DNA from: a virus
DNA: 24,123 nt
Strand: one strand, 5' to 3'
Virus record (IMG/VR): IMGVR_UViG_3300009430_000108
Span: 1 to 24,123 of that record
The notes below the pieces were generated by a model, which did not search any database, had not been told where the DNA came from, and worked only from the letters and a program-made list of their open reading frames with translations. Shown here in pieces: positions 1 through 23,607 of this stretch. Within the stretch, counting starts at the first letter, position 1. Each line of letters starts with the position of its first letter. Position numbers and translations under genes: made by a program.

Positions 1-3000
1 TTCGTCAGATACAGCGGATTCAGAGGACTCATTTTGGGTAAGATAGCATTGAGTTCAATACCATTCTCATTAGCAAATTCACGCTTCAAAGAAACAGTGA
101 TATACCGTTTAGCTTCCTCCTCATTCAAATTCTCTTCCTCTATCAGTTGAGCAGCTTCCATTTTCTGTATACCCTGCGCATATTCGAAGAACGAATCAAT
201 CAGATCCGCTTTATCAAGGATAGTATTCAGATCCGTCTCGTTGATAAAGTCGACCATCAAGTTCTCTTTCGCCCTATAGCCAATGCTTGCACGAATCACC
301 CTACGCGCTTCCTCAATCAACGCAGCCTTGTCTTTTCTCGTTTTGTTGTATTCAAAGATTAGTTCAAGAATATAATCAAGGTTTATCTCCTGAGATTTCA
401 ACAGATCGATCTCGAAGACAACATCATCCCAATCGATGGTCGACTCCTCCCGTTCCTTACCCTGTCTCTGCACTCTCAGCCAGTCGCGTATATCGTTGTA
501 AGTAGAACGATAATCCTGGTTGGCCCGATCAGTCAGCACCTCCACCTCTTGCATCGAAGCTATCTGTTCATCCGTCAGGAAATGAGCCTCTTTGAAAGCC
601 TCAACCGCCGCACTATCGTTCCGATCGATCTTTTGAAACGCTTTCAGATAAGTAAACTCATCATAGTTCTGCAACACATTCTCTATACGCAAGTACTCAC
701 CAAAGAGTTTAGAAAAAGCCTTCTTATCTTTCTCCGTAACAATGGCATCCGGATCAGGGAACTTCTCATTGAGTTCTTTCACCACCTCGATATAGCCCCT
801 ATGAGCTACTCCGGTAACAATATCTTTAAAGCCCTCCAAATACTCCTTATAACTCTTTTCGAGTACAAAATTCTTCGTATTGTCATTGCCAAACGTCCTG
901 ATAGCCTCAATCGTAGCACCTTCCAGATCTCTGAAAGTAACGATGTTACCAAAAGTTTTCGTCGTATCATAAATACGGTTTGTGCGTGAATAAGCCTGTA
1001 TCAGACCATGAAAACGCAGGTTCTTGTCGACAAATAGCGTATTGAGTGTAGGAGCATCAAAGCCCGTCAGAAACATACCCACCACAATAAGCAGATCCAC
1101 CTCCTTGTTCTTCACCCGTTTGGCCAGATCACGGTAGTAGTTCTGAAACTCATTACCATCGACACTAAAGCTCGTTCGGAACATAGCGTTATAGTCGGCA
1201 ATCGCCTTTGAAAGAAACTCTTTCGAACTAATATCCATAGCCGAAAGTTCGAGCGACTCATCCGCAATATCCCCTGCAACATGCTGTTCCTCATTAGCAG
1301 CGAAGGAGAAGATAGTCGCAATCTTCAGCGGTTTATCGCTCCCAGCCTGCAAGGCGTTCAGTTCCTCGTAATAACATTTAGCAGCATCCACGCTCGACAC
1401 AGCAAACATCGCATTAAAACCGCTGCTGCCCCCTCCTTGATTTCTATGAGTTTTTATTTTATAATTCTGTAAGATGTATTGAGAGATCTCTTTAATACGA
1501 GCCGGATGGAGGAGAGCCGTGTTATTTTCAGCAGCACTCAACTTCAGTTCATCTTGTTCCGATTCAATCCCTTTAAACATCGGACGCACATTATTGTAAT
1601 CCACCTTAAACTTCAGTACCTTCTCATCCCTAATAGCATCCGTAATGATGTACTCATGTAGTTCACGACCAAACACACTCTGCGTTGTTTCTACACCTGA
1701 CGCATTTTCAGGGAAGATCGGTGTACCGGTAAAGCCAAACTGATAGAACCTTTTAAACTTTTTCTTCAGATTCTTCTGCGCCTCACCAAACTGAGATCGG
1801 TGAGCCTCATCAAAGATGAACACAACCTGTTTCTTATAGATCGCCAGATCGTTCTCACTCTTCATGAGATTGTTCAGTTTTTGGATCGTTGTGACAATAA
1901 TCTTATTATCATCCTTCTCGATATTTCTTTTCAAGCCCGCCGTACTATTCGATCCGTTCACACTATCGGGAGAGAAACGCTGATACTCTTTCATCGTCTG
2001 ATAGTCGAGATCCTTACGATCGACCACAAAGAACACCTTATCGATAAAGTCGAGTTCCGTAGCCAACCGTGCAGTCTTAAAACTAGTCAGAGTCTTACCC
2101 GATCCGGTGGTATGCCAAATGTATCCCCCAGCATCAGGTTTCGACCAGATCTTCGATTCAAACGAACTTTTGATCTTCCACAAGATCCTTTCCGTTGCAG
2201 CAATCTGATAAGGTCTCATCACAAGCAACGTATTATTTGTGTCGAACACCGAATAAGTGAGCAACACATTCAGCAAAGTCTGTTTCTGGAAGAAAGTAGC
2301 CGTGAAGTCCTTCAGATCTCTGATCAGTGAATTATCAGCCTTCGCCCAGTTCATGGTAAAGTCGAAGCTGTTCTTATTCCGTTCAACGGTATTCGCAAAA
2401 TAGCGACTATCCGTGCCGTTGGAGATCACAAAAATCTGTAGATATTTATAGAGAGAGTTGTCACAGTTGAAGCTCTCTTTCGAATAGCGATGTACCTGAT
2501 AGAATGCTTCACGGATAGCAACACCCCGTTTTTTGAGTTCCACTTGCACCAAAGGTAACCCGTTGACCAATATGGTAACATCGTACCGATTCGCATGCGT
2601 TCCCGTCTGAGCGAACTGCGAGATCACCTGCACTTTGTTGCGGGAAATATGTTTCTTATCCACTAAGTAGATATTCTGAATATGTCCATCATCAAAAACA
2701 AAGTCATAGATATAATCATCATGAATTTTCCTTGTTTTCTCAACCAGATTATCACCCGGTTTATCCAAGTACTCGTCCACATAACGGCTCCATTCACTAT
2801 CGGTAAACGTCACATCATTCAGATCCTGAATCAGAACACGTGCATTCGCAAGCATTTGTCCCGCAGAAGAAATGTTCGTTGGATTCTCATAACCTTGGCA
2901 AACCAGATCGTGGATAAACTCACGTTCCAAAGCAGCCTCCGTCTGATAACCAATAAGAGCATCATGTGCCAAAGGGCATTTGGTGTATTTGTCGAGAACA

Positions 3001-3041
3001 ATATAGTTGTTCGTTTCCGCAATAGTGTTATACTGTGTCAT
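1..3041 (-). CDS. hsdR: Type I restriction enzyme subunit R (HsdR), 3' end cut by window
   Basis: This is the ATP-dependent translocase and endonuclease subunit of a type I restriction-modification system; with HsdM and HsdS it pumps DNA and cuts unmethylated DNA away from the recognition site. I translated it from the ATG at 3041; the frame stays open for 1013 codons to the window edge, so the C-terminus is missing. The N-terminal PD-(D/E)XK nuclease shows D154, E168 and K170 ([10 protein letters not shown] then QVELKK). This D-14-E-2-K spacing equals that known for EcoR124I HsdR (D151, E165, K167). The SF2 motor shows Walker A TTGSGKT (311-317), DEAH (411-414) and motif III FTGTP (437-441). 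EcoR124I HsdR has about 1038 residues, so probably little is lost. It is the last visible gene of the operon, 61 bases after the albA2 gene. Nothing suggests inactivation in the visible part. Confidence 0.95.
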
Positions 3042-7022: not shown

Positions 7023-8123
7023 TTACTTTCCTTTCCAATAATTATTATCGACAAGATGGTTGAGTAGAAATTTCACTATTTTTTTCTCTGGCTCAGTAGG
7101 CTCTGGTATTGCTTCATAAGACAACGTAGAATGACTTGTAAACTGAATTATCCTATTGTAATAAGTTAGTTTATCATCTGGAAGCAGATCCGACCACTGG
7201 GGATACCCTAAGAAATTTGCTGTTTTTTCATATAGATTCCTTAAAAGCATAAAATGATACTTTTCAATACTATTCGTTTCAATAGCTTCTTCAATTACTT
7301 GTTTAATATGTAGGTGGTAAGAAAAACTTTTATTTGAATCACCTTTCTTTTCTTGGATATTAAAAGTACCATCATCCTCCTTATTCAGCATATAACAAAC
7401 TTTATTCTGGAGCTCATTAAATAAAACATTATAAAATAAAGGATTGTGTGTTGTAATAATGAATTTCAGCTTAGAGTCACATGATTTTATTAATTCCGCA
7501 ATATTTACTGCTAACTCAATTAAATGATTTTCATCTAATGAACTTACTGGATCATCAATAAAAACATACTCTAAATTATCGAACTGATGTGTTCCGCGTT
7601 CATTAGGTTCATCAATATTTAAGACTCCAACCACTTCTTTTAATAGACTGTAAAACACACACCAAATTAAGCAGCTTTCTTCACCCTTCGATATCTTTAT
7701 ATTTTCAATGCTTTCATCATCACCACCTTTAATAGAAAAGGTTATTTCATTGAATTGTTCATTAAGGTTTGGCGTTAGTTTATTATTTGTGTAATTTTGA
7801 AAATACGTAACAATGTTTTCAAACTCACCTTGATCTTCAAGAACCCACTTTGTAAAACTGTTTGGCTGTATTTTCAGAACTCGATCAGAGTCTGTATCTA
7901 AGTCATTATCCCAATAAAACAGGTCTTCAGTAAAAGCGTTATAATAAATTATTTTTCCTGATGATTCTTGCTGCTCATCAGAATCATCCTCTTTCGGTGT
8001 TACCAGTTTTTTAAATTCACGAGATAATCTTGTCTTACCTATGCCATTAAACGCATAAATTAATTGCACTTTTTTATTCGTGTTTTTTAATGTTTGTGCA
8101 ATTTCTGTTAATGTCTGTCCCAT
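7023..8123 (-). CDS. prrC: PrrC-like anticodon nuclease (latent tRNA endoribonuclease guarded by a type I R-M system)
   Basis: In E. coli, PrrC is held silent by its type IC restriction enzyme EcoprrI. When the phage T4 Stp peptide disturbs that complex, PrrC cuts tRNA-Lys in the anticodon loop and shuts down translation. This 366-residue protein has the same plan and close to the same length (396 in E. coli). The ABC-type NTPase part (about 1-250) has a Walker A variant YAFNGIGKT (23-31, with Ala in place of the first Gly), a signature-like ISKGEES (144-150), Walker B VFIDDPVSSLD (187-197) and an H-loop TTHN. The C-terminal part holds R295, E299 and H331, spaced 4 and 32, identical to the E. 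coli triad Arg320-Glu324-His356. It starts 14 bases after hsdS, so it is co-expressed with its likely guard. The tRNA target cannot be read from sequence. Confidence 0.9.
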   Translation of the reverse strand: MGQTLTEIAQTLKNTNKKVQLIYAFNGIGKTRLSREFKKLVTPKEDDSDEQQESSGKIIYYNAFTEDLFYWDNDLDTDSDRVLKIQPNSFTKWVLEDQGEFENIVTYFQNYTNNKLTPNLNEQFNEITFSIKGGDDESIENIKISKGEESCLIWCVFYSLLKEVVGVLNIDEPNERGTHQFDNLEYVFIDDPVSSLDENHLIELAVNIAELIKSCDSKLKFIITTHNPLFYNVLFNELQNKVCYMLNKEDDGTFNIQEKKGDSNKSFSYHLHIKQVIEEAIETNSIEKYHFMLLRNLYEKTANFLGYPQWSDLLPDDKLTYYNRIIQFTSHSTLSYEAIPEPTEPEKKIVKFLLNHLVDNNYWKGK

Positions 8124-8137
8124 AATATAGATTTTAA

Positions 8138-9298
8138 TTATTCCTTGGGAAATGTGAGTAACATATCCCGATAATATTCATATTGCTTTTTACGTAATTC
8201 AATTTCTTTAGGAAGACCTTCACTGATAGAAGTAGTGAGGGTATCGAATTTATCAAGTATTGAAACTATGCGTTCCTGCTCGGCAAGAGGAGGAACAGGA
8301 ATAAGGATCTTTTCAAAAGCAGTCTTTGATAAACGAGGGACACTTGCACGACGAACTTGACCAACTATTTTGGTTTGCTGAGTTAACAGATAATAATACA
8401 AAAATTTACTTATAAGATTTTTGAAAGGTACGAAATAGTAAACATCATCAGCAGCCCAAAAATCAACATCACTATACCCAATTTCACCTGCAGAACCCGC
8501 GCTTATAATAAAAACACTATTAGCTTGCACATTACTTTCGTGATAATAACCAAGAGGAATCATGCTATTTTGATAAACTGCATATTTACCCAATTTCTCT
8601 AATTCACTTTTAACAAGTCTTTTACCCCGCTGAATTTTAGTAACTTCTCCTAACACCTTCCACTCCACTTCGTTCTCTTCAAAGCTAAGCAACTGGTCAC
8701 GATAGTAGTTATACTGCTTTTTACGAGCTGTAAGCTCTGCTGTAAGCTCTGCTGTAAGCTCTGTGAACGTGTCTAGAATACGGACAATCTCTTTTTGAAC
8801 GGAGAGTGACTTTTCTGGGTTATCTGGACACGGAATAGGAACAAGCAGCCTTTTGACAATCTGCGCATTAATATTTGTTTGTGAACCAGCACCAAGTGAT
8901 TTAATATATTCATATTGGCTCAATAAAAAATGATACACGTAACGATAATTTGCAATATTTTCATTAAGCTGAATATTTGCGCATGCTTGATTAGTACATA
9001 ATGGAATTTTGTTAATTCCAACTTTACCAACTGTCGCTCCATACATTGCAATGATTATGCAATTAACAGGAATCATTTTAGCACTAGAGTTTTTCAGCCC
9101 CACTTCCGTAATATTAACACCCGTACTCCAAATATCGCCGCTTCCAACTTCTTGGGTTCGAAGCCAAGGAATATTGCCATTATAATATGCTGAAACATTG
9201 GTTTTAGGAGTACCTCCAGAAGATATTTTTACGGCTAATTCTTCCAGCGTCTTCCACTCAACCTTTGCACCATGCAATAATTTATCTAAATAACTCAT
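8138..9298 (-). CDS. hsdS: Type I restriction enzyme specificity subunit (HsdS)
   Basis: DNA-recognition subunit of the type I enzyme; it binds two HsdM for methylation and additional HsdR for cleavage. The 386 residues form the usual two halves: target-recognition domain 1 (about 1-160), a central conserved helix, target-recognition domain 2 (about 207-345) and a C-terminal helix. The two helices carry near-identical segments RKKQYNYYRDQLLSF (192-206) and RKKQYEYYRDMLLTF near the C-terminus, the pseudo-twofold repeat expected of HsdS. The central helix is preceded by TELTAELTAELTA (179-191), matching the variable TAEL repeat of EcoR124. The ATG at 9298 has AAGGAG eight bases upstream and overlaps the ancestral hsdM stop as ATGA. 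Base composition is more AT-rich than hsdM and hsdR. Only one hsdS is visible and it looks full length. Confidence 0.95.
   Translation of the reverse strand: MSYLDKLLHGAKVEWKTLEELAVKISSGGTPKTNVSAYYNGNIPWLRTQEVGSGDIWSTGVNITEVGLKNSSAKMIPVNCIIIAMYGATVGKVGINKIPLCTNQACANIQLNENIANYRYVYHFLLSQYEYIKSLGAGSQTNINAQIVKRLLVPIPCPDNPEKSLSVQKEIVRILDTFTELTAELTAELTARKKQYNYYRDQLLSFEENEVEWKVLGEVTKIQRGKRLVKSELEKLGKYAVYQNSMIPLGYYHESNVQANSVFIISAGSAGEIGYSDVDFWAADDVYYFVPFKNLISKFLYYYLLTQQTKIVGQVRRASVPRLSKTAFEKILIPVPPLAEQERIVSILDKFDTLTTSISEGLPKEIELRKKQYEYYRDMLLTFPKE
8727..8763 (-). repeat. 12-bp tandem repeat, three copies, in the hsdS central linker
   Basis: The plus strand reads GCTGTAAGCTCT three times without mismatch, with one further matching base. 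On the coding strand each unit encodes Glu-Leu-Thr-Ala, giving ELTA x3. In EcoR124 the equivalent repeat (TAEL) occurs two or three times, and this changes the spacer of the recognition site from 6 to 7 bases. Being in-frame and exact, it can gain or lose units by slippage without breaking the gene. Confidence 0.9.
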
Positions 9299-11298: not shown

Positions 11299-12282
11299 TC
11301 ATGACGTCTCTAATTGATTTATAATTGTTATTATTTGATCAAATAAGGATCGACTTTCTCTAGCTTTCGTGATGTGTTCTCCATTTAAACCATCAGCAGA
11401 AGTACACTTAAATACAGGTTTTCTTGCCCTTAATGAATAAGGTATTAAACTATGCAGATTAGGTATTTCACCTAAATTATAGTTATCTTTTATTTCAACT
11501 TGATCTAAAGGAGTCAAGGGTGCGACTAAATTGTTCATCACAGCAAGATCTATTCTACTTGCAAAAATCTGCCAGCCCCTAGTCATTCTTGCTGCATTAT
11601 TTCTAACATTATGCTGTTGGATAACATATCCTAAATATTTGGGTTTACCAGATGGTAAACTAAACTCGTCACCTTTATATGCTGTTCTAATTTGACTCCA
11701 TTCTTCTGCCCAATGCACTAGTTTATTCCCTAAATTTTGCGTTCCTTGAATTGAAAATAAATCGGCGGCTAATGGAGTTATAAAATAATCAGTTCCACCT
11801 AATATAGCCCTATTCAAGGAACCTAAATTAGGTCCTAGATCAATCATAACCACATCAATATTCAACTCCTCAGCACACCATTGCAAATATCTATAGATAG
11901 CAACCTGTGAACGTAAATCCGGAACGCTACCGCCCTTAGCACTATTCCAAGTATCACCTAGTCTATCTTCAAATGTACTGAGTCTTAAATCTCCAGGCGT
12001 TAAATATAAATTTTCTTGCAACGCTATTGGTTCACGTTTAAGAAAATCTCCAATACCTTGATAAATTGGATCAATTACTTGATAAATACTGTTTCCTTGA
12101 AGACTCCAGCTATGAGTGATTTGCTCATCAGTCAAACAATAAGCCGTTAAATTACATTGGCTATCACAATCTACTAGCAAAGTTTTTTTACCATTTTCTG
12201 CTAGTATATGACCAATATGATACATATAGGTAGTCTTACCTACTCCACCTTTATTATTGAAAATACTTAAAAATATAGCCAT
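11299..12282 (-). CDS. ParA/MinD-superfamily ATPase without a ParB neighbour
   Basis: A 327-residue deviant-Walker ATPase of the ParA type, which dimerises on ATP, binds DNA non-specifically and usually moves plasmids, chromosome origins or protein cargo. The Walker A' motif is NKGGVGKTT (10-18) with the signature lysine at 11; Walker A' is followed by VDCDSQCNLT (37-46) and the switch II MIDLGPNLGSLN (146-157). Its own promoter lies just upstream and the next gene downstream on this strand is the tiny unit at 11123, so it appears monocistronic. No ParB-like gene lies beside it in this window, which is unusual for a partition locus. It may act alone, serve a mobile element, or pair with a distant partner. 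AT content is higher than that of hsdM and hsdR. Confidence 0.85.
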   Translation of the reverse strand: MAIFLSIFNNKGGVGKTTYMYHIGHILAENGKKTLLVDCDSQCNLTAYCLTDEQITHSWSLQGNSIYQVIDPIYQGIGDFLKREPIALQENLYLTPGDLRLSTFEDRLGDTWNSAKGGSVPDLRSQVAIYRYLQWCAEELNIDVVMIDLGPNLGSLNRAILGGTDYFITPLAADLFSIQGTQNLGNKLVHWAEEWSQIRTAYKGDEFSLPSGKPKYLGYVIQQHNVRNNAARMTRGWQIFASRIDLAVMNNLVAPLTPLDQVEIKDNYNLGEIPNLHSLIPYSLRARKPVFKCTSADGLNGEHITKARESRSLFDQIITIINQLETS

Positions 12283-13511: not shown

Positions 13512-14123
13512 CTAGTTATTTGGTGGCTTGATACACATATATAGAAACCATATAACAATACATAATACAACTAACACAGCTAATGCCCAAAACATATTAC
13601 CAATTTGCTGAGGAACAGTCGTTTCTTGCCTTTGAATATCCTCTTCTTTTGCCTCTTTGATCTTCGTACTATCATTTAACTGCTCTGCGCTAGACTTATT
13701 AAGTGTTGTGTTGCTTATTTCTCCCTTTTTCTTATTGGTTTCCCTTTTGGTGTTCCTTTTCGTTTCAGAGAAAACAGGTTGCTTACCGGTTGATGGATCA
13801 GCTGGCTTACTTGTATCGTAGACAGTAGTAACCTCTTCCACTTCCTCAGTCATATCTTCCGACTCTAACTTGTTTATGTTTTGATTGAGCGAAGATGTAT
13901 CTTTCCGATTGGCTTGACTACCGGATTCTATCGATAAATCTTGCTTAGATAAAGACTTGCTGCTTCCACATGAACAGCATACTAACATTATGATCGTATA
14001 TACTACAAACAGTGCCACACTGAATGGCTTACGGAAGTCTGGAACATGCACGATCGTTTTTGCTTTAAAGGAGTATAGCACTACAACGAGTGCTATAACT
14101 ACATAGATTATCCACGCTATCAT
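13512..14123 (-). CDS. Spanin-like membrane/lipoprotein of the lysis cassette
   Basis: A 203-residue protein following the amidase by an ATGA overlap. It has a hydrophobic N-terminal helix (about 3-18), a second one (about 34-48) ending in LVCCSCGSS with a possible lipobox Cys52, a long hydrophilic charged middle rich in Ser, Thr, Lys and Glu (about 55-170), and a C-terminal membrane helix (about 175-197). A lipid anchor at one end and a membrane helix at the other is the plan of unimolecular spanins such as T1 gp11, which fuse inner and outer membranes at the end of lysis. Position after holin and endolysin fits. The extra first helix is not typical, and if Cys52 is not lipidated the protein would be a plain inner-membrane protein. 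The assignment is by topology and context only. Confidence 0.6.
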   Translation of the reverse strand: MIAWIIYVVIALVVVLYSFKAKTIVHVPDFRKPFSVALFVVYTIIMLVCCSCGSSKSLSKQDLSIESGSQANRKDTSSLNQNINKLESEDMTEEVEEVTTVYDTSKPADPSTGKQPVFSETKRNTKRETNKKKGEISNTTLNKSSAEQLNDSTKIKEAKEEDIQRQETTVPQQIGNMFWALAVLVVLCIVIWFLYMCIKPPNN

Positions 14124-14695
14124 AAGCTCAAATATTCAGTTATTCCCCTAACATGTAAATCTACAATAGCTTTCTTTCCTGATTCTGAAAGCAAAAAATC
14201 AACATCCTCTTTGTTGTCTTGAAATAAATTTTCCGTTAATACGGCTGGACATCTCGTATTTTTAAGGATGTAAAACTGAGATTCTTTATCTACATCTCCA
14301 TCAGAATTATCTTTTCTAATTTGCATACCATTAAGATACCATTCAGCAGCAGAATATAAGCAGGTAGCTAACTTATCAGACTTAGTTTGGCCTACACTGG
14401 TCCACGCCTCCCATCCGCGAGCATTCATCCATGTACCTGCACCCGCTGCATTACAGTGTATAGATATAAGTATAGTTTCAGAGTCCTTATATTGATTAAC
14501 ACGCCTACAGCGTTCATCCAATGGTACGTCTATTTCTTCTTTTACGATGCATTCAGTATTGATTCCTTGTTTTTTCAACTCTAGCTCTAATCTCATTGCT
14601 ATTTCACGCGCGTAAGCATATTCCAGCAAGCGACCATCTGGTGATCGCTTGCCTTTAGTATTACTTCCATGACCGTTATCGATCAATACTATCAT
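14120..14695 (-). CDS. Phage endolysin, N-acetylmuramoyl-L-alanine amidase (Amidase_3)
   Basis: A zinc amidase that cleaves the bond between muramic acid and the stem peptide in peptidoglycan. The 191 residues are a bare catalytic domain with the family motifs in order: DNGHG (H9), LLEYAYAREI (E25), SIHCNA (H80) and TENLF with the catalytic E155. There is no signal peptide or cell-wall-binding domain, so release to the periplasm would depend on the upstream holin. Its ATG overlaps the holin stop and its stop overlaps the spanin-like start (both ATGA), a tightly coupled lysis cassette. Length and motifs match phage-borne Amidase_3 enzymes of Bacteroidales. Confidence 0.92.
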   Translation of the reverse strand: MIVLIDNGHGSNTKGKRSPDGRLLEYAYAREIAMRLELELKKQGINTECIVKEEIDVPLDERCRRVNQYKDSETILISIHCNAAGAGTWMNARGWEAWTSVGQTKSDKLATCLYSAAEWYLNGMQIRKDNSDGDVDKESQFYILKNTRCPAVLTENLFQDNKEDVDFLLSESGKKAIVDLHVRGITEYLSL

Positions 14696-15132
14696 TTTAT
14701 ACCTCCTCTCATCCTGAAAAAATCTTTAATGTATCCAAAAGCCTCTGTAGTGAGAAACGAATATATAAAACCTATTAATTTATTATTTGGCCACAACATA
14801 GATGCATTTCTAAAAATATTAGTTGTATACAAATAGCTAATCACCCATGTCGCCCATTTCGCAATTGTGTATGCTAACTCACTTTCATCATATCCGGTAG
14901 TAGCTAATGACACAATAAAAAGTATACAAAAAATCAACCCTAACTGTCTAGCGGCATCTAAAGCTTTTTTAAGATCAAAAGGTTTTCCATCATTCCTGTC
15001 GGTAGCAATACCGATAAGTATATTAATACTCCACACTGATAGCAAAACTATTATAGCCACATTAAGAGGCTGTAATGCGGCTAATATCAATGCAATAAGC
15101 CACGCTGTAAATTGTTTTAAAATATCTTCCAT
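14692..15132 (-). CDS. Phage holin
   Basis: A 146-residue membrane protein with four likely helices at about 8-22, 25-43, 64-79 and 87-105, and a basic C-terminal end (FFRMRGGIK). Such proteins are annotated as phage holin family in Bacteroidales phages; they open the inner membrane so that the endolysin reaches the peptidoglycan. The assignment rests on topology plus immediate coupling to the amidase gene through an ATGA overlap. The preceding gene ends five bases upstream. I see no dual-start motif that would suggest an antiholin. Confidence 0.8.
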   Translation of the reverse strand: MEDILKQFTAWLIALILAALQPLNVAIIVLLSVWSINILIGIATDRNDGKPFDLKKALDAARQLGLIFCILFIVSLATTGYDESELAYTIAKWATWVISYLYTTNIFRNASMLWPNNKLIGFIYSFLTTEAFGYIKDFFRMRGGIK

Positions 15133-15136
15133 TACT

Positions 15137-15409
15137 TTATTTATCTAAGATTACAACTTCATCATCAAACATATATTGCTTAATACTAACATTTTCACCT
15201 CCAAGCATTGCTGTTTTAGTTGCAATAGCCTCTTCTTGAGTGATAAGATTATTCTCGGAGATGTATTTCTCCAATTCTTCCACAGTGTCAAACTCGGCAA
15301 ATTCAAACCCATTTCCAGGTGTGCATCTGTCGGAAAAATTAGTTTCCTTAATTTGTATTATTCCATTCTCATGAACAATAATACATTTTTTTGTTAACTC
15401 TTTCATCAT
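15137..15409 (-). CDS. Small hypothetical phage protein between tail fibre and holin
   Basis: I do not recognise this 90-residue acidic protein. It has no membrane helix or signal peptide. The segment EFAEFDTVEELEKYISENNLITQEE looks helical, and the ends (KCIIVHENGIIQIKETNF and IKQYMFDDEVVILDK) look like beta strands. Lying directly after the fibre gene, it might be a fibre-assembly chaperone, a fibre-tip partner or an unrelated small protein; position is the only argument. The ATG at 15409 lies 12 bases after the fibre stop. MM at the start leaves a second possible ATG three bases later. Confidence 0.75.
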   Translation of the reverse strand: MMKELTKKCIIVHENGIIQIKETNFSDRCTPGNGFEFAEFDTVEELEKYISENNLITQEEAIATKTAMLGGENVSIKQYMFDDEVVILDK

Positions 15410-15421
15410 ATTAGTTATTTT

Positions 15422-17872
15422 TTAATTTGTCGTTATTGTAAAACCGATTAAAGACAATTTTGCTCTAGCATCTGCTGAAGCAGCTGTAGGCGCTCCACAG
15501 TTACCAGTTAGGCTTATCACTTTTGACCCGACTGCTGTAGTTACTTGTGCTGCTAAATCTATGAATATTTGATCAGTCATTGCGGATGTAAAAATGTTTG
15601 ATGTTGGAGATATTATAATAGTATCTACACTTGCGTTAAATTTCAAATTTCCACTATATGTGACATTTATGCCATATAATGTCATTAATTCTATTGTTCC
15701 TTTAAGGTCTGATAAATTCCCGCTAACTGTATTTGTTCCGGACAATGTAAGCCTAACACAGCTATCAGGTATGTCTTTTATAAGTCCACTTATTCCCGTT
15801 GAATTACCTATATATAAAACTTTCACTTTTCTAGGTATCCCGGATAGGTTTCCGGATATTTTAGTACTATTGAGGAATAAGTATTCTAGTCCACGTGGGA
15901 GTTCCTTGTAGTCACCTGTTGTTAATCCGTCTATATTTGTTGGAGTTGCCAATCTTAGATCTATAACATTCCTTGGTATTAATGATACATTACCGTATAA
16001 TTTATTTACGACAGTTGTAGCAGTTCCGTACATACTAGATTTAATAGGCAATTCAGAGGTTAAAGGTGCTAATACTGGATCATTATTACCTTTAGCAAAA
16101 TCCGATATATATATTAAGTTATCTATTTCTAACTCTGCGTATTGGCTTAATAATTTAACATATACATTTGTCTGAATATCTTTGTATAATGTTAACTCTT
16201 TACCAATCTCATTAACTCCAGTGCCATCAACAAATATACCACCATACATAGTAGCTTTACCAGTTTTATTGGTTATTACGGAAAATCTCGCCAATCCAGA
16301 ACCATTGCCATTTTGCTCAAGTCCGATATACTTCTTGAACGGATAGGTATATGGTTCAGGAACTACGTTCCCATAGTTAACAGTAGGGTTGCCAGTAGTT
16401 GTTCCGTCAAGACTATTTTGTGTATCTAACCATTTACTTGGTGTTGCGTTTTCAGGTAATAATTCAAGAACACAACCAGTAGAGGTTTTATTTATTTTAT
16501 CTGCATAATTTAAACGGCTTAAATCTGGTCTACCAGCGTTATAGTAGTAGTCTACGTCTGATTGGTCAAAGCCTCGCTTATAAATTCTTATAAGAGAGAT
16601 TGAACCATTAAACCAATGGCTTGCATATTCACCTATTTTAAGACCGCTTGCTGTGTTAAAATTCAGTGTAGAATCAAAGGCTTTATTTCCAACAAGTTCT
16701 CCATTTAAATATATATATGCAACATTATCCTTAATTGTAAATATCGCATGGTTATTATTTTTAGCACTTGGCGCAACAGAATCAAAACTTACCTCTGTTT
16801 CATCTTGCTTTAAAAACCAAGATAATCTTCCGGTGTTTAGTCTACATCCCCATCCGCTAATTACAGAACCATACGTTCTCTTAATTAGCAAATTTTTCAA
16901 CCCAATGTCATCTGTTTTTCTAAATATTATTTCTGCTGTGAATCCAGAGTTTGCAAAATCGAGAAGATTATTATTATTTACAGTTATTACATCATCAACA
17001 CCATCAAATCTATATCCAAACGCTTTCCTTGCCAAGCCGCCAACAGCAAATTTCTCTTCCGCTGTCATGTGCTGAATATTGGGATCACCGTTAGGATCCC
17101 GCAATTGCGAATGTCTAGGAGCAAGTGGCGTATTGAAATAAGATGGATTTGATCCGCCAATAATAACTGATAATGTTTTAGCAGTATTGCTATTAGTTAC
17201 CGCATATAATTTAACGATCAATTTATCCGATTCCAACACGGAGAATTGAGGTTCTATTGTTTCAAAAACAATTCTATCTTCTACTGTATTATCTATCTCA
17301 ACGGAGTCTGTTACAAATAATTGAGTTTCAGAACCAGCATTTGAACGTGTGTATATTTTCAACCTAGCAAACGTCTGTCCAGTAGCACTAGATACTTTAC
17401 CAAATATTGAAAATTTCCAAGATCCTGAGTCGATTATAGAAGTACCTAATGAAAGAGGAAACGCAAATTCTTCTATGAGCGTTTCAACATTGTTTGTTGA
17501 TGTTCCAGTAATTGTTGTCGGAGTAGTATCATTTACATAAGATAACGTTTTATATCCGCTAATTACAGATGTCACATTAGACATGTATAAATTAGCTGCA
17601 AATCCTCCGGATCCTACAGCAATTTCGGCAAAAGTGCCATCACCACGTAAATATTTAGATGAATTTTCACCATTTTGTATGCCAATAACCGGGTATTCAT
17701 CTAACTTTCTTATTTCAGAATCAGCAATTAAAGATTTTCCTAATTCCTTGGGAACTAAATCTGCAATATCTTGTTCCAAGCTTTGACCTGTATCTTCGTT
17801 ATATACAGCTCTAGCTACAGTAGCAGGGAATATGGTTGCATTCCCTTTTTTAAGTTTGTGTATTTCTGCCAT
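15422..17872 (-). CDS. Tail fibre / receptor-binding protein with LamG-like domain
   Basis: An 816-residue fibre protein. Residues 1-90 (MAEIHKLKKGNATIFP..., SSKYLRGDGTFAEI) are the adaptor seen at the start of many Bacteroidales phage fibres. Residues about 95-245 look like a beta sandwich. Residues about 285-455 form a LamG/concanavalin-like domain: YRFDGVDDVITVNN, FTAEIIFRK, AYIYLNGELVG, LKIGEYASHWFNGSISLIRIYKR. A short beta region follows, and the last 170 or so residues carry short leucine-containing repeats (LRLATPTNIDG, LEYLFLNSTKISGNL, VKVLYIGNSTGISGLI, VRLTLSGTNTVSGNL), like a small leucine-rich-repeat array. LamG and the repeats both suit binding of surface polysaccharide or protein. 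No reverse transcriptase or template repeat is nearby, so there is no sign of targeted diversification. Confidence 0.85.
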   Translation of the reverse strand: MAEIHKLKKGNATIFPATVARAVYNEDTGQSLEQDIADLVPKELGKSLIADSEIRKLDEYPVIGIQNGENSSKYLRGDGTFAEIAVGSGGFAANLYMSNVTSVISGYKTLSYVNDTTPTTITGTSTNNVETLIEEFAFPLSLGTSIIDSGSWKFSIFGKVSSATGQTFARLKIYTRSNAGSETQLFVTDSVEIDNTVEDRIVFETIEPQFSVLESDKLIVKLYAVTNSNTAKTLSVIIGGSNPSYFNTPLAPRHSQLRDPNGDPNIQHMTAEEKFAVGGLARKAFGYRFDGVDDVITVNNNNLLDFANSGFTAEIIFRKTDDIGLKNLLIKRTYGSVISGWGCRLNTGRLSWFLKQDETEVSFDSVAPSAKNNNHAIFTIKDNVAYIYLNGELVGNKAFDSTLNFNTASGLKIGEYASHWFNGSISLIRIYKRGFDQSDVDYYYNAGRPDLSRLNYADKINKTSTGCVLELLPENATPSKWLDTQNSLDGTTTGNPTVNYGNVVPEPYTYPFKKYIGLEQNGNGSGLARFSVITNKTGKATMYGGIFVDGTGVNEIGKELTLYKDIQTNVYVKLLSQYAELEIDNLIYISDFAKGNNDPVLAPLTSELPIKSSMYGTATTVVNKLYGNVSLIPRNVIDLRLATPTNIDGLTTGDYKELPRGLEYLFLNSTKISGNLSGIPRKVKVLYIGNSTGISGLIKDIPDSCVRLTLSGTNTVSGNLSDLKGTIELMTLYGINVTYSGNLKFNASVDTIIISPTSNIFTSAMTDQIFIDLAAQVTTAVGSKVISLTGNCGAPTAASADARAKLSLIGFTITTN

Positions 17873-17891
17873 AACTATATCAATTTAAAAT

Positions 17892-18401
17892 TTATAATTC
17901 ATAACTACTATCCGAAATAAACTCAGATGTTACCATGTCCGCCTGAATGGCTAATATCACTTCCTGTTTAAAGGCATTCTTTTGATCTGAAGTCATCTTA
18001 TCCCATGACATAGGTTCTCCAGGATCTCCTTTCTGATAATTGGGAGGAATATTAAGATTAACATCAGAGGTATCTGTTTTACCTCTTACCAGTTCAATAC
18101 CGGTATATTCGGTTGATCTGAGATTGCATATAGAATCTCTATAGTCATTATCTGTTAGATAATATTCACGATCAACCTGCAAAGAACCAATAGGTAACCC
18201 TGAAAGATTGTTGTTAAATGGTATCATAATAGATCCTTCAGACAATCTACTACAATTTTTGTATACCTGACCATCAAAAGATACTTCAAGTATAACAGAT
18301 CCAGGATTAACGTAGTATTGATATCTAAAAGGAGTTTTATCATCATATTGTACTGATGACTCAACAATCTTAAAATCTGATTTATAATTAATTCTACTCA
18401 T
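17892..18401 (-). CDS. Phage tail/fibre-associated protein
   Basis: I do not recognise a named family. The 169 residues are mostly beta-strand in character (FRYQYYVNPGSVILEVSFDGQVYKN, MIPFNNNLSGLPIGSLQVDREYYL) and end with a linker typical of phage fibre adaptors (NYQKGDPGEPMSWDKMTSDQKNAFK). The collagen-like GDPGEP and the MTSDQK phrase are common where fibre subunits connect. The gene overlaps its upstream neighbour by four bases and ends 19 bases before the large fibre gene. It is likely a fibre-connector or upper-fibre protein; the role is inferred from place and linker style. Confidence 0.75.
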   Translation of the reverse strand: MSRINYKSDFKIVESSVQYDDKTPFRYQYYVNPGSVILEVSFDGQVYKNCSRLSEGSIMIPFNNNLSGLPIGSLQVDREYYLTDNDYRDSICNLRSTEYTGIELVRGKTDTSDVNLNIPPNYQKGDPGEPMSWDKMTSDQKNAFKQEVILAIQADMVTSEFISDSSYEL

Positions 18402-18796
18402 GATATTATATCTGCTAAGTTTGTAATAAGTTCACTGGTTAACAGTTGATTGGTATTACCTATGTTCCCAACAATTTCCCATCCTGGATTTCGAAAAGCA
18501 TACATCTTACCGTTATCAACACTATTCAAATCTAGTGGATTATATATGGAAACTACTTGGGAAAACTTAAGAGGTATTCCATCTGCCCCTACTGGAGCCG
18601 TGCTATCAGTATTCATCGCTGATATAGTAGTATACACCTTCCTTACTCCTATATTTCCAGATACTTTTTGAAATTCGGATAGTAACTCAAGAGTTCCATC
18701 CATTATGCCACCCACATTTTGAGGGCTAATAGATTCGCTTTCCGTTTTATTGGATAGTTCTTGAGCTTCTCTTCTTAAATCTGTTATTGTTTTCAT
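18398..18796 (-). CDS. Small phage tail fibre-region protein
   Basis: A 132-residue protein of the fibre cluster. It begins with a helical segment (MKTITDLRREAQELSNKTESESISPQNVGGIMDGTLELLSEFQK) of the kind found at the start of fibre proteins of Bacteroidales phages, followed by a beta-rich stretch (VRKVYTTISAMNTDSTAPVG, SIYNPLDLNSVDNGKMYAFRNPGWEIVG). No enzyme motif is visible. It starts seven bases after the preceding gene and overlaps the next by four, so it is expressed with them. The likely role is a structural link between baseplate and fibre, by context only. Confidence 0.75.
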   Translation of the reverse strand: MKTITDLRREAQELSNKTESESISPQNVGGIMDGTLELLSEFQKVSGNIGVRKVYTTISAMNTDSTAPVGADGIPLKFSQVVSIYNPLDLNSVDNGKMYAFRNPGWEIVGNIGNTNQLLTSELITNLADIIS

Positions 18797-18803
18797 AATA
18801 GAG

Positions 18804-19577
18804 TTACATTAGCAATTGTGTATGATTAATTACGCATGCAGGTAATGATGTCATAGCTGATCCATTACTTTCATATAAATACATGCTTCCGTATTCCAGT
18901 CTTATCATTACTTGTTTTACATTCCCATTTTGAAACATCATACCTGCCGATATAATTGCACTAATCATTTTGTTTTGAACTGTATAGTCACATATTTTAC
19001 CGTTAGATAATGATACACCCGATGTTACTATCTTCACATTAATTTTATCCGTATTTGAATCAATTGAACTATAAGATATCCCAGCGGATGTATTACTTAC
19101 GATATTATCAACTGACACTGGATAATCAATATTAGTTACTGATATGTATGCATCCCGTAATGATAAAGCGTTTTTCACATTTATATTAATTGCCCCTGAA
19201 CCACCAACTCCAAGTTTAACAACTGATATTTGATAAACATTATGAGATGTACCATCTTGAAAAACAGTCTCTTCAGATGTTGTTGTATAAACTTGATAAT
19301 AAACATTATCCTGTATATTAGCCACAGTTATAGAGCTTGCTTCAACCTTATATATATTACCCATCAAGTAAATTGCACCTTCAGCACAAGTGACATTTGC
19401 ACCTCCTGATGGATTTGGAGTTGTTACTACTTTAGCACCCCATAATATAACTGCATTATTGCTATTTGCAAATGTTTTTCCTATATGTGATAATATATCT
19501 TCTATGTTTTGTTGCATAAAATTTATATGTTCAAGATATAGGGGTTGACCTCCTGTGTAAGTAAGTATTTTATTCAT
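18804..19577 (-). CDS. Phage baseplate/tail-fibre structural protein
   Basis: A 257-residue protein in the position where P2-like phages place the first fibre gene, directly after the gpI-position gene and overlapping it by eight bases. The N-terminus (ILTYTGGQPLYLEHINFMQQNIEDILSHIGK) is helical and looks like a baseplate-attachment segment. The rest is Gly-, Ser-, Val- and Asn-rich beta structure (VTCAEGAIYLMGNIYKVEASSITV, YYQVYTTTSEETVFQDGTSHNVYQISVVKLG). There is no catalytic motif. I would call it a proximal tail-fibre protein; no family name is certain. Confidence 0.75.
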   Translation of the reverse strand: MNKILTYTGGQPLYLEHINFMQQNIEDILSHIGKTFANSNNAVILWGAKVVTTPNPSGGANVTCAEGAIYLMGNIYKVEASSITVANIQDNVYYQVYTTTSEETVFQDGTSHNVYQISVVKLGVGGSGAININVKNALSLRDAYISVTNIDYPVSVDNIVSNTSAGISYSSIDSNTDKINVKIVTSGVSLSNGKICDYTVQNKMISAIISAGMMFQNGNVKQVMIRLEYGSMYLYESNGSAMTSLPACVINHTQLLM

Positions 19578-20049
19578 AATTATATATATTTATAATGAAG
19601 CCTCTACCGGCTGGTTTATAATAATTAGTTAACGATCTTATATCTGATACTTTATCTGCTAGAAAAGAGGGTACATTAACACTGAAATCTCCTGAGTATT
19701 TTCCTTCTCCTTTATTTTTAAAATATCTATTGACACCTTCATCTTTAGTGTTTATATATAATGGTTCTCCACCTTTTGGATAGATGTAATTATATTTTTC
19801 AGTAATATCTGTTATATATATTTCATTGTTGATTAAGAAATTCTTGTCATTAAGTATTTTTTCGATGTATATAACTTGACCATTGATCCCAAGTTTATCA
19901 TTGCAACTTATTCTATATGCTGATAACATAGTGTATATGTATATCAATGGGCTTACTAATATTTTAGCAATCTCAAAAAGCACTGTTTTACGCAAAATAG
20001 GTGGTAAAACCTGCTTAACATATTTAATGATATCGAAACTATACCACAT
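19570..20049 (-). CDS. Tail protein in the gpI position
   Basis: A 159-residue protein following baseplate J with an 11-base overlap, the place taken by gpI (tail protein I) in P2-like phages, where it connects the baseplate wedge to the fibre. A helical, hydrophobic N-terminal part (IIKYVKQVLPPILRKTVLFEIAKILVSPLIYIYTMLSAYR) is followed by beta-rich sequence ending FKNKGEGKYSGDFSVNVPSFLADKVSDIRSLTNYYKPAGRGF. The phrase LTNYYKPAGRGF recalls the ends of Bacteroidales proteins of this role. Direct similarity to gpI is not clear, so the label is by position. Confidence 0.65.
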   Translation of the reverse strand: MWYSFDIIKYVKQVLPPILRKTVLFEIAKILVSPLIYIYTMLSAYRISCNDKLGINGQVIYIEKILNDKNFLINNEIYITDITEKYNYIYPKGGEPLYINTKDEGVNRYFKNKGEGKYSGDFSVNVPSFLADKVSDIRSLTNYYKPAGRGFIINIYNYE

Positions 20050-20887
20050 ATTGTATTGAATTTTCCAAGCCTGTCGAAATCAAACATCCGGCAAAGGCTT
20101 GATAGTTATTACCCGTAATTACCTTATAACTGGTCTCAGCTGCTTTCTTTGCTGTACATTCACCAATCTCTACATCTATCACACCGGATACGGATTGTAT
20201 GGCATCTACTAACTTTGTCTTATTGAATACTCCTCCGTATACTATATTAGACAGATAACTGTTTATAGCATCAACTACAGGTTTACTTCCATTAGATATT
20301 AAACTCCCGTCCGACTTATACATGAGTGTGTCAAGTGTAACGATTGCATTAATTCTAATAATATCAGCCGGTAATGACTGTATGCGCAATATTACACCTG
20401 CTATTTTGATATCTTGCATGTAGGATGCGAATGCTTGTAACTCATCAGATGTTAGTGGAACCGGCTTACCCGCGTTATCACTTGATACCAGGATAGAAAT
20501 ACTACCTCCTAGATCTTTGACAGCAGCATATTTTACTACCATTGCTTTTTCATCTATGACTGAGTATTCATACTTCCCTTTATCCGTATTATATATCAAT
20601 TGATATCCATACTGAAAAGCCAATGATTGAGTATGATACCATCGTGTAGTAGGTACAATATTTGCATCTATTCTTGCATCAACATCGATTCGTAAATCAT
20701 CAAATAGCAATTCAATGATATGAGCTGCTGCTGCAAACAAATAAATCAATAGATTTTCAATTGATACTGAAGAAAAGAAATCTTCAAAACTCACATCTCC
20801 TTCAATCTCATAGAGTGATCGCAATGTTGAATTTGACATAAAATCATCTGTCATTGCTTTCTTAATATCTTTAGTGCTTCTTGCCAT
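20039..20887 (-). CDS. Baseplate J-like protein
   Basis: A 282-residue baseplate wedge protein of the gpJ/gp6 type, which forms the ring that holds the tail hub and opens at infection. The region after residue 160 (VILRIQSLPADIIRINAIVTLD..., VVDAINSYLSNIVYGGVFNKTKLVDAIQSVSGVIDVEIGE) is characteristic: an outward domain followed by a helix and the closing strand of baseplate J proteins. The N-terminal part (IENLLIYLFAAAAHIIELLFDDLRIDVDARIDANIVPTTRWYHTQSLAFQYG) is typical of the Bacteroidales version. It is preceded by LysM and gp25-like genes and followed by the gpI-position gene, the usual order. Confidence 0.85.
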   Translation of the reverse strand: MARSTKDIKKAMTDDFMSNSTLRSLYEIEGDVSFEDFFSSVSIENLLIYLFAAAAHIIELLFDDLRIDVDARIDANIVPTTRWYHTQSLAFQYGYQLIYNTDKGKYEYSVIDEKAMVVKYAAVKDLGGSISILVSSDNAGKPVPLTSDELQAFASYMQDIKIAGVILRIQSLPADIIRINAIVTLDTLMYKSDGSLISNGSKPVVDAINSYLSNIVYGGVFNKTKLVDAIQSVSGVIDVEIGECTAKKAAETSYKVITGNNYQAFAGCLISTGLENSIQYVV

Positions 20888-20894
20888 ATTACTA

Positions 20895-21167
20895 TTACAT
20901 AAATTGTTGACTAAATTGCTTAGTAAATATTTTGAGTCTCAATTCTCCATTATCAGTACCCGTTGCCGGACGTATATTATTTCTGCAATATTCAGCAAGC
21001 TCTTTGTTGTATACTGCTTCAGGAGCAATAATTTCCGATCCCGGCATCAGATCGGAGGTAATGCTTATGTTATTTGATTTAGCGAGCATATAAACGGCCG
21101 AAAGATCTCCGTAAATCTGAACTGCTATATCTGATAATGTTTGGTTAGGCTGTATGATTACTGTCAT
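20895..21167 (-). CDS. LysM-domain tail protein (gpX-like)
   Basis: A 90-residue protein whose first 50 residues form a LysM-like fold: VIIQPNQTLSDIAVQIYGDLSAVYMLAKSNNI, then LMPGSEIIAPE. In contractile phages a small LysM protein (P2 gpX) binds at the tube-hub interface. The C-terminal 35 residues (basic, YCRNNIRPATGTDNGELRLKIFTKQFSQQFM) are specific to this version. It sits between the gp25-like and baseplate J genes with gaps of 13 and 7 bases. Confidence 0.85.
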   Translation of the reverse strand: MTVIIQPNQTLSDIAVQIYGDLSAVYMLAKSNNISITSDLMPGSEIIAPEAVYNKELAEYCRNNIRPATGTDNGELRLKIFTKQFSQQFM

Positions 21168-21180
21168 TTTTAAATGTTTT

Positions 21181-21483
21181 TTAAATGGTTTTTAAAGTTA
21201 ATCCTATTGACTCGTTGATACTGTCATAGTCAACTCTAGCTCTAATAAGGTTAACTCTAATTCTTTTTTGTACGGCAGACTTATTAACTCGACTTCTTAT
21301 CAGCTGATATAAATTAGGTCCAAGTACCGGATCTTCCTTTAGCTCGCCTTGATTAAGAGATAGCACAATAGCAGCATTCTGTATTTCAGTGTTTGATAGT
21401 ACAAAACCCGTCATTTTTCCATCCTGGTTGCGATGTGGGGTAATTGTGATATCCCCTGTATCATTGAGTGTAATTCCTTTCAT
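21181..21483 (-). CDS. GPW/gp25-like baseplate wedge protein
   Basis: A 100-residue protein of the gp25 family, which joins the baseplate wedge to the sheath and starts contraction. Visible parts are an initial segment DTGDITITPHRNQDGKMTGFVLSN, a helix-rich middle with GELKEDPVLGPNLYQLIRSRVNKS, and a closing RIRVNLIRARVDYDSI. The EDPVLGPNL region corresponds to the conserved Glu-Pro-containing core of gp25. Its start overlaps the spike stop by four bases. Confidence 0.8.
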   Translation of the reverse strand: MKGITLNDTGDITITPHRNQDGKMTGFVLSNTEIQNAAIVLSLNQGELKEDPVLGPNLYQLIRSRVNKSAVQKRIRVNLIRARVDYDSINESIGLTLKTI

Positions 21484-22001
21484 TGCTTTATCTTTTTGTT
21501 CTCTATATCATCAACTTGGGTTATCTGCAATATGTTAGTATAAAAAGGAAATAATAGAGTCTTGAGAGATGTACCACTATCATTCAATACTGGTACCCAC
21601 GTTTTGAATACATTCTTTAGACTATTGATATCTTTTTCGATCTTATTTATACGTTCTGTCAACTCTTTTACTTTAACCAATCCGCCCAGCGATCCACTAT
21701 TAATGATAATGTCAGTATGAGCATTTATCTCAATGCGATCTACCTCATCAGCAGAAAGCAAGTAAGCATCTGTTTTGTTCTCTGTTATTCCGATCAGGAT
21801 CATGCTTCCTAGTCGTGGTATTAAGATCATAGTCCCAAGGCCCAGTGATACATCATAATACTCCAAGTCATCATCACATATACAATCAACTGTTCGATCT
21901 TCATCATTAACAGATATGACTTTAGCATATCTGATTATTGCCAGGTCTTCACCCTTTGCAAATCCCTGGAATACATTTCTTAGTTGTTCGTCATCAGTCA
22001 T
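21480..22001 (-). CDS. gpV-like baseplate spike protein
   Basis: A 173-residue protein between the hub and gp25 genes, the place of the P2 gpV spike. Residues about 20-100 form an OB-like beta domain (AKVISVNDEDRTVDCICDDD..., LGTMILIPRLGSMILIGITENKTDAYLLSADEVDRIEI), followed by a short beta-helical stretch (NAHTDIIINSGSLGGLVKV) and a coiled coil (ELTERINKIEKDINSLKNVFKTW). There is no HxH iron-binding apex motif, and the C-terminus is a coiled coil plus tail, so the sharp tip may come from another protein. It overlaps the hub gene by eight bases. Confidence 0.75.
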   Translation of the reverse strand: MTDDEQLRNVFQGFAKGEDLAIIRYAKVISVNDEDRTVDCICDDDLEYYDVSLGLGTMILIPRLGSMILIGITENKTDAYLLSADEVDRIEINAHTDIIINSGSLGGLVKVKELTERINKIEKDINSLKNVFKTWVPVLNDSGTSLKTLLFPFYTNILQITQVDDIENKKIKQ

Positions 22002-22968
22002 TAGCCTTACCTCCCAGTTCTATTTTTTGTCGATATGTAGCGTTATCACTAAATTCCTTTGTAACTTTTTCAATGAAGTATTTGCCATTCATTTCAGGAG
22101 TGATTTCGCTCGTTAAATCGATAACCATTCCATGTGATACGCGTGGTATTCCAAATAGCTCTATGCCACCTTTGTACTTTTGCTTTTTAAGAGATTTATA
22201 AAATCTATTTGCAAAGTCCTGTAGCAACTTAAAAGTTATCTTCATGTCTTTATCATTGTATCTGATCCGTACCGTTTCAGCACCTTCAACACCCGCTTTA
22301 GCCTCTAGTTTCTTTCCACGACCAAGCGATGCAATGGCTTGAACTTCATACTCACCTGTTGTTTCATTTAAGTCCTGTGACACAGCATTTCTCTCAAGTT
22401 CAATACGTATTTCATCTTGCTGTATATTGTCAGTGTATACATCACCACAATATAAAGTCTTGCCAACAAAGTATGTATACAGTCCCATTTTTCGTAGATC
22501 ATCAAATACTTCAGTTACACGTTTCTTGGAGTATCTTACACTGCCTAGTTCTGTATCACCAAAAGAAGATACTATTTTATATCCTGGAGCAATATCAGAT
22601 AGTAATGTATGCAGCTTTACGGACCTTCTTGAGTAATTGATTGTTTTGCGTTTTAAGACGTACATCTCATCTTCACATTTGATCTCAAGTGGTATACCAC
22701 GTGATACCGATAAAATGTAACCTTCAAATTCTGTATACATATTACCATCATATCCAAGTTCTATCCTTACCGGATCACCGGCACGCAAAATATCTTTGAG
22801 TTCCTCACCTTGAAACTTACGGATCCTTCGAGGTAATATGATGTTAGCTGTATCTGTCAGCATCTTCCAAGAGGATTCTATCGAAACAGATGACACCAGA
22901 CTAATTGATACTTCTTTACGTACCTTTGTATCTGGAAACACTATTTTTGCACACATCATATAACTCAT
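21994..22968 (-). CDS. Late control D / gp27-like tail hub protein
   Basis: A 324-residue baseplate hub of the gpD/gp27 type, forming the trimer that joins tail tube and spike. The N-terminal part (SIESSWKMLTDTANIILPRRI, then AGDPVRIELGYDGNMYTEFEGYILSVSRGIPLEIKCEDEMYVLKRK) is the standard first tube-like domain; the rest contains DVYTDNIQQDEIRIELERNAVSQDL and the end GIPRVSHGMVIDLTSEITPEMNGKYFIEKVTKEFSDNATYRQKIELG, typical of hubs. It overlaps the upstream DUF6046-like gene by four bases and the spike gene by eight. Confidence 0.85.
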   Translation of the reverse strand: MSYMMCAKIVFPDTKVRKEVSISLVSSVSIESSWKMLTDTANIILPRRIRKFQGEELKDILRAGDPVRIELGYDGNMYTEFEGYILSVSRGIPLEIKCEDEMYVLKRKTINYSRRSVKLHTLLSDIAPGYKIVSSFGDTELGSVRYSKKRVTEVFDDLRKMGLYTYFVGKTLYCGDVYTDNIQQDEIRIELERNAVSQDLNETTGEYEVQAIASLGRGKKLEAKAGVEGAETVRIRYNDKDMKITFKLLQDFANRFYKSLKKQKYKGGIELFGIPRVSHGMVIDLTSEITPEMNGKYFIEKVTKEFSDNATYRQKIELGGKAND

Positions 22969-23597
22969 AGTTGTAGCTCTTTAGGTGTATCACTGCATGC
23001 ACGTATTGTAAATGGGATTATTGAGCTGTTTCCCTGGATGGGGTTAAAACTCAATTCCTCAATCACAATCGAATAAATCTCCTTATCATTAAAAATTGAT
23101 CCCGTTACTCCAATAGCATCCATCACTTTTCCATACGTTATAAGTGCAGACATTTGCTCTTCAGGTGTTTTGTATCCGGATCGTGATTTGTCATTTATGC
23201 AAAATCCACGTATCTGTATGTTCCAATCATCATTACCATAGATCTCTTTAACGGTTCCCCTGGTACCAAGAACCTTTGTCTTACTCACGTTTTTAGCTTG
23301 AGTAAAATCTACAATAGTAGCATACGGCATCCTGAAAGATGATATATTAATAGTAGTTCGGTTCCCATTTACATCGTACGTAGCATAGTCTTTACGCCCA
23401 TCAAGTTCAAAAGAACCGATAACAGGTGTTCCCATCCAACTATTATATTCAGATTTAGTTGGTTCTGTGAAAGCTAACCCTGAATATTTGCCCGGATCGT
23501 AATCATTAAGCTTACGACCCCATGGCAAATATATCGGAGAACTAATACCAAAAACCTCCGTAAATAATGCACCTATATTTAATGCTGTATTATCCAT
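22965..23597 (-). CDS. Phage tail protein, DUF6046-like
   Basis: A 210-residue protein between the tape measure and the hub, where P2-like phages carry gpU-type or DNA-circularisation-type tail proteins. Visible parts are ISSPIYLPWGRKLNDYDPGKYSGLAF, a beta-rich core (STFRMPYATIVDF-like segment, then VSKTKVLGTRGTVKEIYGNDDWNIQIRGFC) and the end EELSFNPIQGNSSIIPFTIRACSDTP. This resembles proteins labelled DUF6046 in Bacteroidales phages; the label is from memory of the family style. It probably caps the tube or links it to the hub. It begins 10 bases after the tape-measure stop. Confidence 0.7.
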   Translation of the reverse strand: MDNTALNIGALFTEVFGISSPIYLPWGRKLNDYDPGKYSGLAFTEPTKSEYNSWMGTPVIGSFELDGRKDYATYDVNGNRTTINISSFRMPYATIVDFTQAKNVSKTKVLGTRGTVKEIYGNDDWNIQIRGFCINDKSRSGYKTPEEQMSALITYGKVMDAIGVTGSIFNDKEIYSIVIEELSFNPIQGNSSIIPFTIRACSDTPKELQL

Positions 23598-23607
23598 GTG
23601 TATCTAA

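Follow-up and report, generated by a model that had tools for sequence, protein, structure and literature searches.

PrrC has been described as the guardian of a restriction-modification (R-M) system that is activated by Stp together with dTTP (PMC12707154), and its catalytic triad and regulation have been reported (PMC2610378). The triad was assigned, and changing any of the matching residues in the related nuclease RloC kills activity; similar nuclease activity of PrrC from Haemophilus and Streptococcus is cited in the same paper as unpublished results (PMC2610378). The nuclease domain has been classed as HEPN, and an association of RhuM with prrC has been published (both PMC3710099). Two further lines of work bear on the locus described here. 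In Photorhabdus, mutation of trlG or deletion of the whole operon of the "temperature restriction locus" lifts a growth arrest at 36 C (PMC7554251), and Schlafen-GHKL proteins have been described as backup RNases in BREX (PMC12839542).

The stretch of DNA analysed in this study (the window) is a 24,123-base IMG/VR virus record whose right half contains phage tail genes. It carries a prrC gene on the minus strand, a point not stated in the earlier note on this DNA, and the identification of the product as PrrC made there was borne out. The PADLOC PrrC profile (PDLC02360) matched residues 3-363, that is, the full length, with E = 8.4e-144, and the family profile PHROG 23661 matched with E = 5.5e-153. 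The 396-aa PrrC of E. coli plasmid pRHB17-C14_2 (CP057689; L022) was used as the reference in place of the CTr5x prototype itself; its residues 320, 324, 356 and 287 are R, E, H and D, the same as in the published prototype. It aligned end to end with the window protein at 62% identity (E = 2e-174). These E-values rule out a chance origin of the ORF or its motifs, and judged by its sequence the window PrrC is an ordinary, intact-looking member of a well-known family. We consider it, with a probability of about 0.88, to be the guardian anticodon nuclease of a type IC-like R-M enzyme, which would cleave tRNALys when the restriction enzyme is inhibited; the figure covers the PrrC part only and not the guard role considered below for TrlF and TrlG. 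Positions of the features are listed in Table 1.

Table 1. Features of the 24,123-base window, in order of position
Feature	Position	Strand	Description and basis
hsdR, restriction subunit	1..3041	(-)	cut by window edge near 3' end; 71-80% identity to HsdR of prrC loci
trlG-like, 391 aa	3103..4278	(-)	Schlafen (AlbA_2) + GHKL ATPase; PF04326, PF13749; start set by alignment
trlF, 863 aa	4275..6866	(-)	PHP domain + SMC-like ATPase; NF045780 TrlF, E = 2.7e-141
TrlF ATPase motif GIRGSGKS	5976-5999	(-)	
TrlF PHP motif DFHLH	6804-6818	(-)	
prrC, 366 aa	7023..8123	(-)	ATG start, without internal stop; ABC NTPase ~1-260, C-terminal helical domain ~264-359
PrrC H331 (= His356), catalytic	7131..7133	(-)	alignment to plasmid PrrC; 112/112 homologues
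PrrC E299 (= Glu324), catalytic	7227..7229	(-)	alignment to plasmid PrrC; 112/112 homologues
PrrC R295 (= Arg320), catalytic	7239..7241	(-)	alignment to plasmid PrrC; kept in 111/112 homologues
PrrC KKGDSNKSFSY	7317..7349	(-)	E. coli PrrC 284-294 region; D262 = Asp287
PrrC linchpin H226	7446..7448	(-)	112/112 homologues
PrrC Walker B/D-loop YVFIDDPVSSLD, residues 186-197	7533..7568	(-)	D190, D191 invariant
PrrC ABC signature KISKGEE, residues 143-149	7677..7697	(-)	motif reading
PrrC Walker A AFNGIGKT, residues 24-31	8031..8054	(-)	G29, K30, T31 invariant in 112 homologues
hsdS, specificity subunit, 386 aa	8138..9298	(-)	PF01420, two stretches = two target-recognition domains
hsdS TAEL tetrapeptide repeats	8729..8764	(-)	perfect 12-bp DNA repeats; sequence reading
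hsdM, modification subunit, 501 aa	9340..10845	(-)	TIGR00497, E = 3.9e-196
ParA-like ATPase	11299..12282	(-)	upstream of hsdM; PF13614, phrog_164
Phage lysis (endolysin), tail and baseplate genes	13512..24093	(-)	adjoin R-M operon

The operon has the order hsdM-hsdS-prrC-trlF-trlG-hsdR, and the proposed linkage to a type I enzyme was confirmed by the presence of hsdM, hsdS and hsdR around prrC on the same strand. HsdM and HsdR were 79% and 71% identical, respectively, to the subunits of the prrC-linked enzyme of E. coli, and HsdS carries TAEL repeats, which are typical of type IC specificity subunits. This homology and the repeats together assign the enzyme to a type IC-like group. The copy number of the 12-bp repeats in hsdS could change, with altered recognition spacing as the outcome. 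Compared with Phocaeicola faecalis, identity was 91% for HsdM (locus L026) and 73% for PrrC, in agreement with the likely Bacteroidales host named in the earlier note.

A set of 103 other prrC loci, taken from genomes, plasmids and viral contigs, served for comparison. Wherever the contig shows the relevant part, their order was hsdM-hsdS-prrC-hsdR, which holds for essentially every complete relative. In 100 of 101 loci hsdR is downstream of prrC, the exception being a distant relative with 31% identity, and in 16 of the 101 an extra 0.85-1.55 kb separates the two genes; the extra genes examined in this slot encode RhuM, DUF1016/YhcG or Bro-N. Individual loci differ in other respects. One (L014, 7250-9829) has a gene for an 860-aa AAA_13-type ATPase between hsdS and prrC. 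The reference locus (L022) is on a P1-like E. coli plasmid with hsdM-hsdS-prrC-hsdR, and a gene annotated as a 3'-phosphatase (11570-12076) adjoins this operon, which possibly places tRNA repair beside the nuclease.

Whether the R-M/PrrC operon is part of the phage, or of a bacterial chromosome lying beside a prophage, is a question that we regard as evenly balanced. In favour of a chromosomal operon, the search for phage relatives gave colinear ones solely for the tail-gene part of the window, to the right of ~18.4 kb; lysis-type genes end at ~13.5 kb, and in the 10.8-13.0 kb region, which is AT-rich and contains ParA, none of the genes was recognised as a phage structural one. On the other side, IMG/VR classes the whole record as viral, and PrrC is carried by 20 other IMG/VR records, by the P1-like plasmid mentioned above and by known phage-plasmids (PMC11652158). 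At a threshold of E 1e-5, PrrC had no counterpart in a phage collection, even though copies exist in IMG/VR and in phage-plasmids. The ParA-like ATPase stands alone, with the phage genes on one side, the R-M operon on the other and no ParB seen, and a search of viral contigs with it found no relatives. When the prophage part was compared at the DNA level with 393 Bacteroidales genomes, short chance-level matches only were obtained. PrrC itself is widely distributed: in one genome collection, 489 matching stretches encode a relative, and relatives occur in 12 of the 393 sampled Bacteroidales genomes, five of them close. The window copy adds an example from gut Bacteroidales with a clear tRNALys prediction.

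The two genes between prrC and hsdR, which were absent from the earlier note, are trlF and trlG. TrlF scored 473 bits against NF045780, for which the curated cut-off is 350, and the start of trlG overlaps trlF by 4 bp (ATGA). Many trlF homologues seemed to have an in-frame TAG; in the five checked, this proved to be the codon that ends trlF, where it overlaps trlG. GrwAB of Vibrio, considered as a relative of TrlF, was dropped as it is of the GmrSD type, and viral contigs searched with TrlF yielded no relatives. The Schlafen core fold of TrlG was matched to the human Schlafens SLFN14, SLFN11 and SLFN13 by profile search and by Foldseek on the predicted fold, both of which also matched the tRNase domain of SAMD9. 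The acidic active site was assessed against E206, E211 and the downstream Asp of SLFN14 and was incomplete: E14 and D51 are kept, and Q19 (4222-4224) occupies the position of E211, which is Ala in the mutant forms of known structure. Gln is found at this position in the window TrlG and most of its relatives. Because the second Schlafen carboxylate is thus a Gln, RNase activity of this TrlG clade is uncertain. Elsewhere, on a viral contig (L199, 7001-8401), a Schlafen-GHKL gene lies amid BREX-like genes, as reported for BREX.

In Bacteroidota genomes, 18 further trlF loci were surveyed, and trlG follows in all 17 whose contig extends far enough. In 7 of the 18, a DNA-methyltransferase or R-M gene lies alongside on the same strand. 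These are type I hsdM-hsdS-trlF (L170, in which trlF is interrupted and runs off the end of the contig, and in whose genome a search for PrrC gave none), type III Mod-trlF-trlG-Res (L167 and L192), a helicase with an Eco57I-type methylase (L169), an N6_N4 methylase with a DEAD helicase (L173), and Eco57I/TaqI-type methylases (L174 and L195). Type I genes are close to the pair in L191 and L196, on the opposite strand, and no R-M neighbour was recognised in L168, L171, L172, L190, L193 and L194.

These data bear on whether PrrC is the sole guard of the enzyme, with trlF-trlG an unrelated hitch-hiker that landed in the operon. We take this explanation seriously and place it only somewhat below an even chance. 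It agrees with the loci in which the pair has no recognised R-M neighbour, and with the comparison set, since trlF occurs in none of the 103 other prrC loci and the combination was seen in the window only. It is less easily reconciled with the recurrence of the pair beside unrelated methyltransferases, which are of type I in the window and L170 and of type III, Eco57I-like or N6_N4 types elsewhere, or with its arrangement in the window, where all genes of the operon are on the same strand and no intergenic gap exceeds ~160 bp.

The reading that we put forward, tentatively and at rather less than even odds, is that one type I R-M operon carries two independent suicide effectors, PrrC and TrlF-TrlG, that TrlFG is a general restriction-guardian picked up by several R-M types, and that the growth arrest in Photorhabdus is a misfiring phage defence. 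A guard role of TrlFG would follow from its repeated genomic context and the growth-arrest phenotype: a growth-stopping pair that repeatedly adjoins methyltransferases or restriction enzymes of differing types suggests a restriction-sensing defence. Such a double-guard R-M operon would be new, the window being the only case so far among the 103 prrC loci compared, and might represent a layering of guards, directed at phages which, like T4, repair tRNA or which block one of the guards.

Turning to the nuclease itself, R295, E299 and H331 of PrrC had been placed in the active site in the earlier note, and they align column for column with R320, E324 and H356 of the plasmid PrrC. The NTPase motifs named there are likewise all present, comprising Walker A, the ABC signature, Walker B with the D-loop, and H226. 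The spacing of the triad, which had been stressed as exact, does match that of E. coli PrrC, but it is nothing special: E and H are 32 apart in 91 of the 112 homologues and 33-37 apart in the rest, and since so many relatives share it, the exact spacing adds little and was discarded as a distinguishing mark. The triad as such is a strong sequence mark of the PrrC family.

The target tRNA had been considered not evident, but it is less obscure than that. Asp287 of E. coli PrrC, which takes part in tRNALys recognition, is aligned with D262, and the surrounding GDSNKSFS is identical in the window and plasmid proteins; Asp is found at this position in 102 of the 112 homologues. Conservation of this recognition stretch, and the reported similar behaviour of PrrC from distant bacteria, make tRNALys the target to be predicted by default.

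It might still be that the window gene is a PrrC homologue by descent and yet inactive, or retuned to cut a different tRNA or another RNA in Bacteroidales. Decay may occur, as one of the 112 homologues (L096, 10001-11113) has Cys in place of the catalytic Arg and may be inactive. Nevertheless, the triad, the NTPase motifs and the 284-294 region of the window PrrC are intact and conserved, and the Haemophilus and Streptococcus enzymes are reported to have similar nuclease activity, and we find loss or retuning improbable. Membership in RloC, a zinc-hook, DNA-break-triggered, wobble-excising nuclease with the same HEPN triad and ABC motifs, is refuted by size and by the missing insert, as 366 aa leave no room for a zinc-hook coiled coil (RloC has 658-897 aa; PMC2610378), the protein has E-X31-H where RloC has E-X36-52-H (PMC2610378), and both the best match, to the PrrC profile, and the linkage to type I R-M genes also contradict it.

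Structure prediction, like the alignment with E. coli PrrC, had been suggested as a check in the earlier note. The AlphaFold2 model, built from 35 sequences with a mean pLDDT of 77.7, consists of an ABC head and, after it, a helical C-domain, whose helices are predicted at residues 264-282, 288-305, 318-329 and 344-359. R295 and E299, which stand at the R320 and E324 columns, would lie together on helix 288-305, and H331, at the H356 column, just past helix 318-329. The head resembles those of Rad50/SMC proteins (best Z 12.1, rmsd 3.7, 220 residues aligned). Fold searches of the PDB with PrrC returned only Rad50/SMC-type and other ABC heads; the absence of a HEPN entry is uninformative either way, and sequence searches of the PDB found no PrrC entry. 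HEPN RNases are four-helix bundles with a conserved R and H. The C-domain, modelled as a helical bundle, is predicted to be of the HEPN type on the basis of its topology and the published classification, not of a structural match.

By analogy to the E. coli system, the preferred reading of PrrC as guardian would operate as follows. PrrC would be made together with HsdM, HsdS and HsdR, and the complex would hold it inactive. An incoming phage that inhibits the restriction enzyme, as with Stp of T4, together with a shift in the dTTP pool, would provide the trigger; no Stp or other trigger was identifiable. The Rad50-like NTPase head would then free the C-terminal HEPN-type nuclease, which would cut tRNALys 5' to the wobble base by means of R295, E299 and H331, and the cleavage would stop translation and with it phage growth. 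The analysis itself established the sequence, the motifs, the gene order and the predicted domains; silencing, trigger and tRNALys cleavage are here inferred for the window PrrC from its family. The TrlF-TrlG pair, too, may guard this restriction enzyme, acting independently of PrrC by growth arrest or as an RNase.

Among known systems, PrrC/EcoprrI of E. coli is similar to the window locus in full-length homology of the nuclease, in the triad, NTPase motifs and Asp287 equivalent, and in the position of prrC after hsdS with an enzyme of the type IC family. The window PrrC lacks 30 aa relative to the E. coli protein, most of them ahead of Walker A and in a linker, and its locus is Bacteroidales-like and differs from EcoprrI in having trlF-trlG between prrC and hsdR. 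RloC has in common with the window PrrC an ABC NTPase and a HEPN-type triad; the window protein lacks a zinc hook or coiled coil, is half the size and is R-M-linked. The TRL locus (trlR-trlF-trlG) of Photorhabdus laumondii likewise has trlF with trlG directly after it, and AlbA_2 and HATPase_c_4 are ordered and placed as in the window protein, whereas in the window no trlR was seen and the pair is within a type I R-M operon that also contains prrC. The prrC loci with RhuM, DUF1016/YhcG or Bro-N also have an extra gene in the prrC-hsdR slot, which in the window is filled by an ATPase-Schlafen pair. PARIS (AriAB) follows the same logic, in that this guardian, which responds to anti-restriction proteins, senses restriction inhibition, cuts tRNA and halts translation (PMC12707154). 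This is different from the window locus in its effector, an unrelated Toprim protein, and in its operon.
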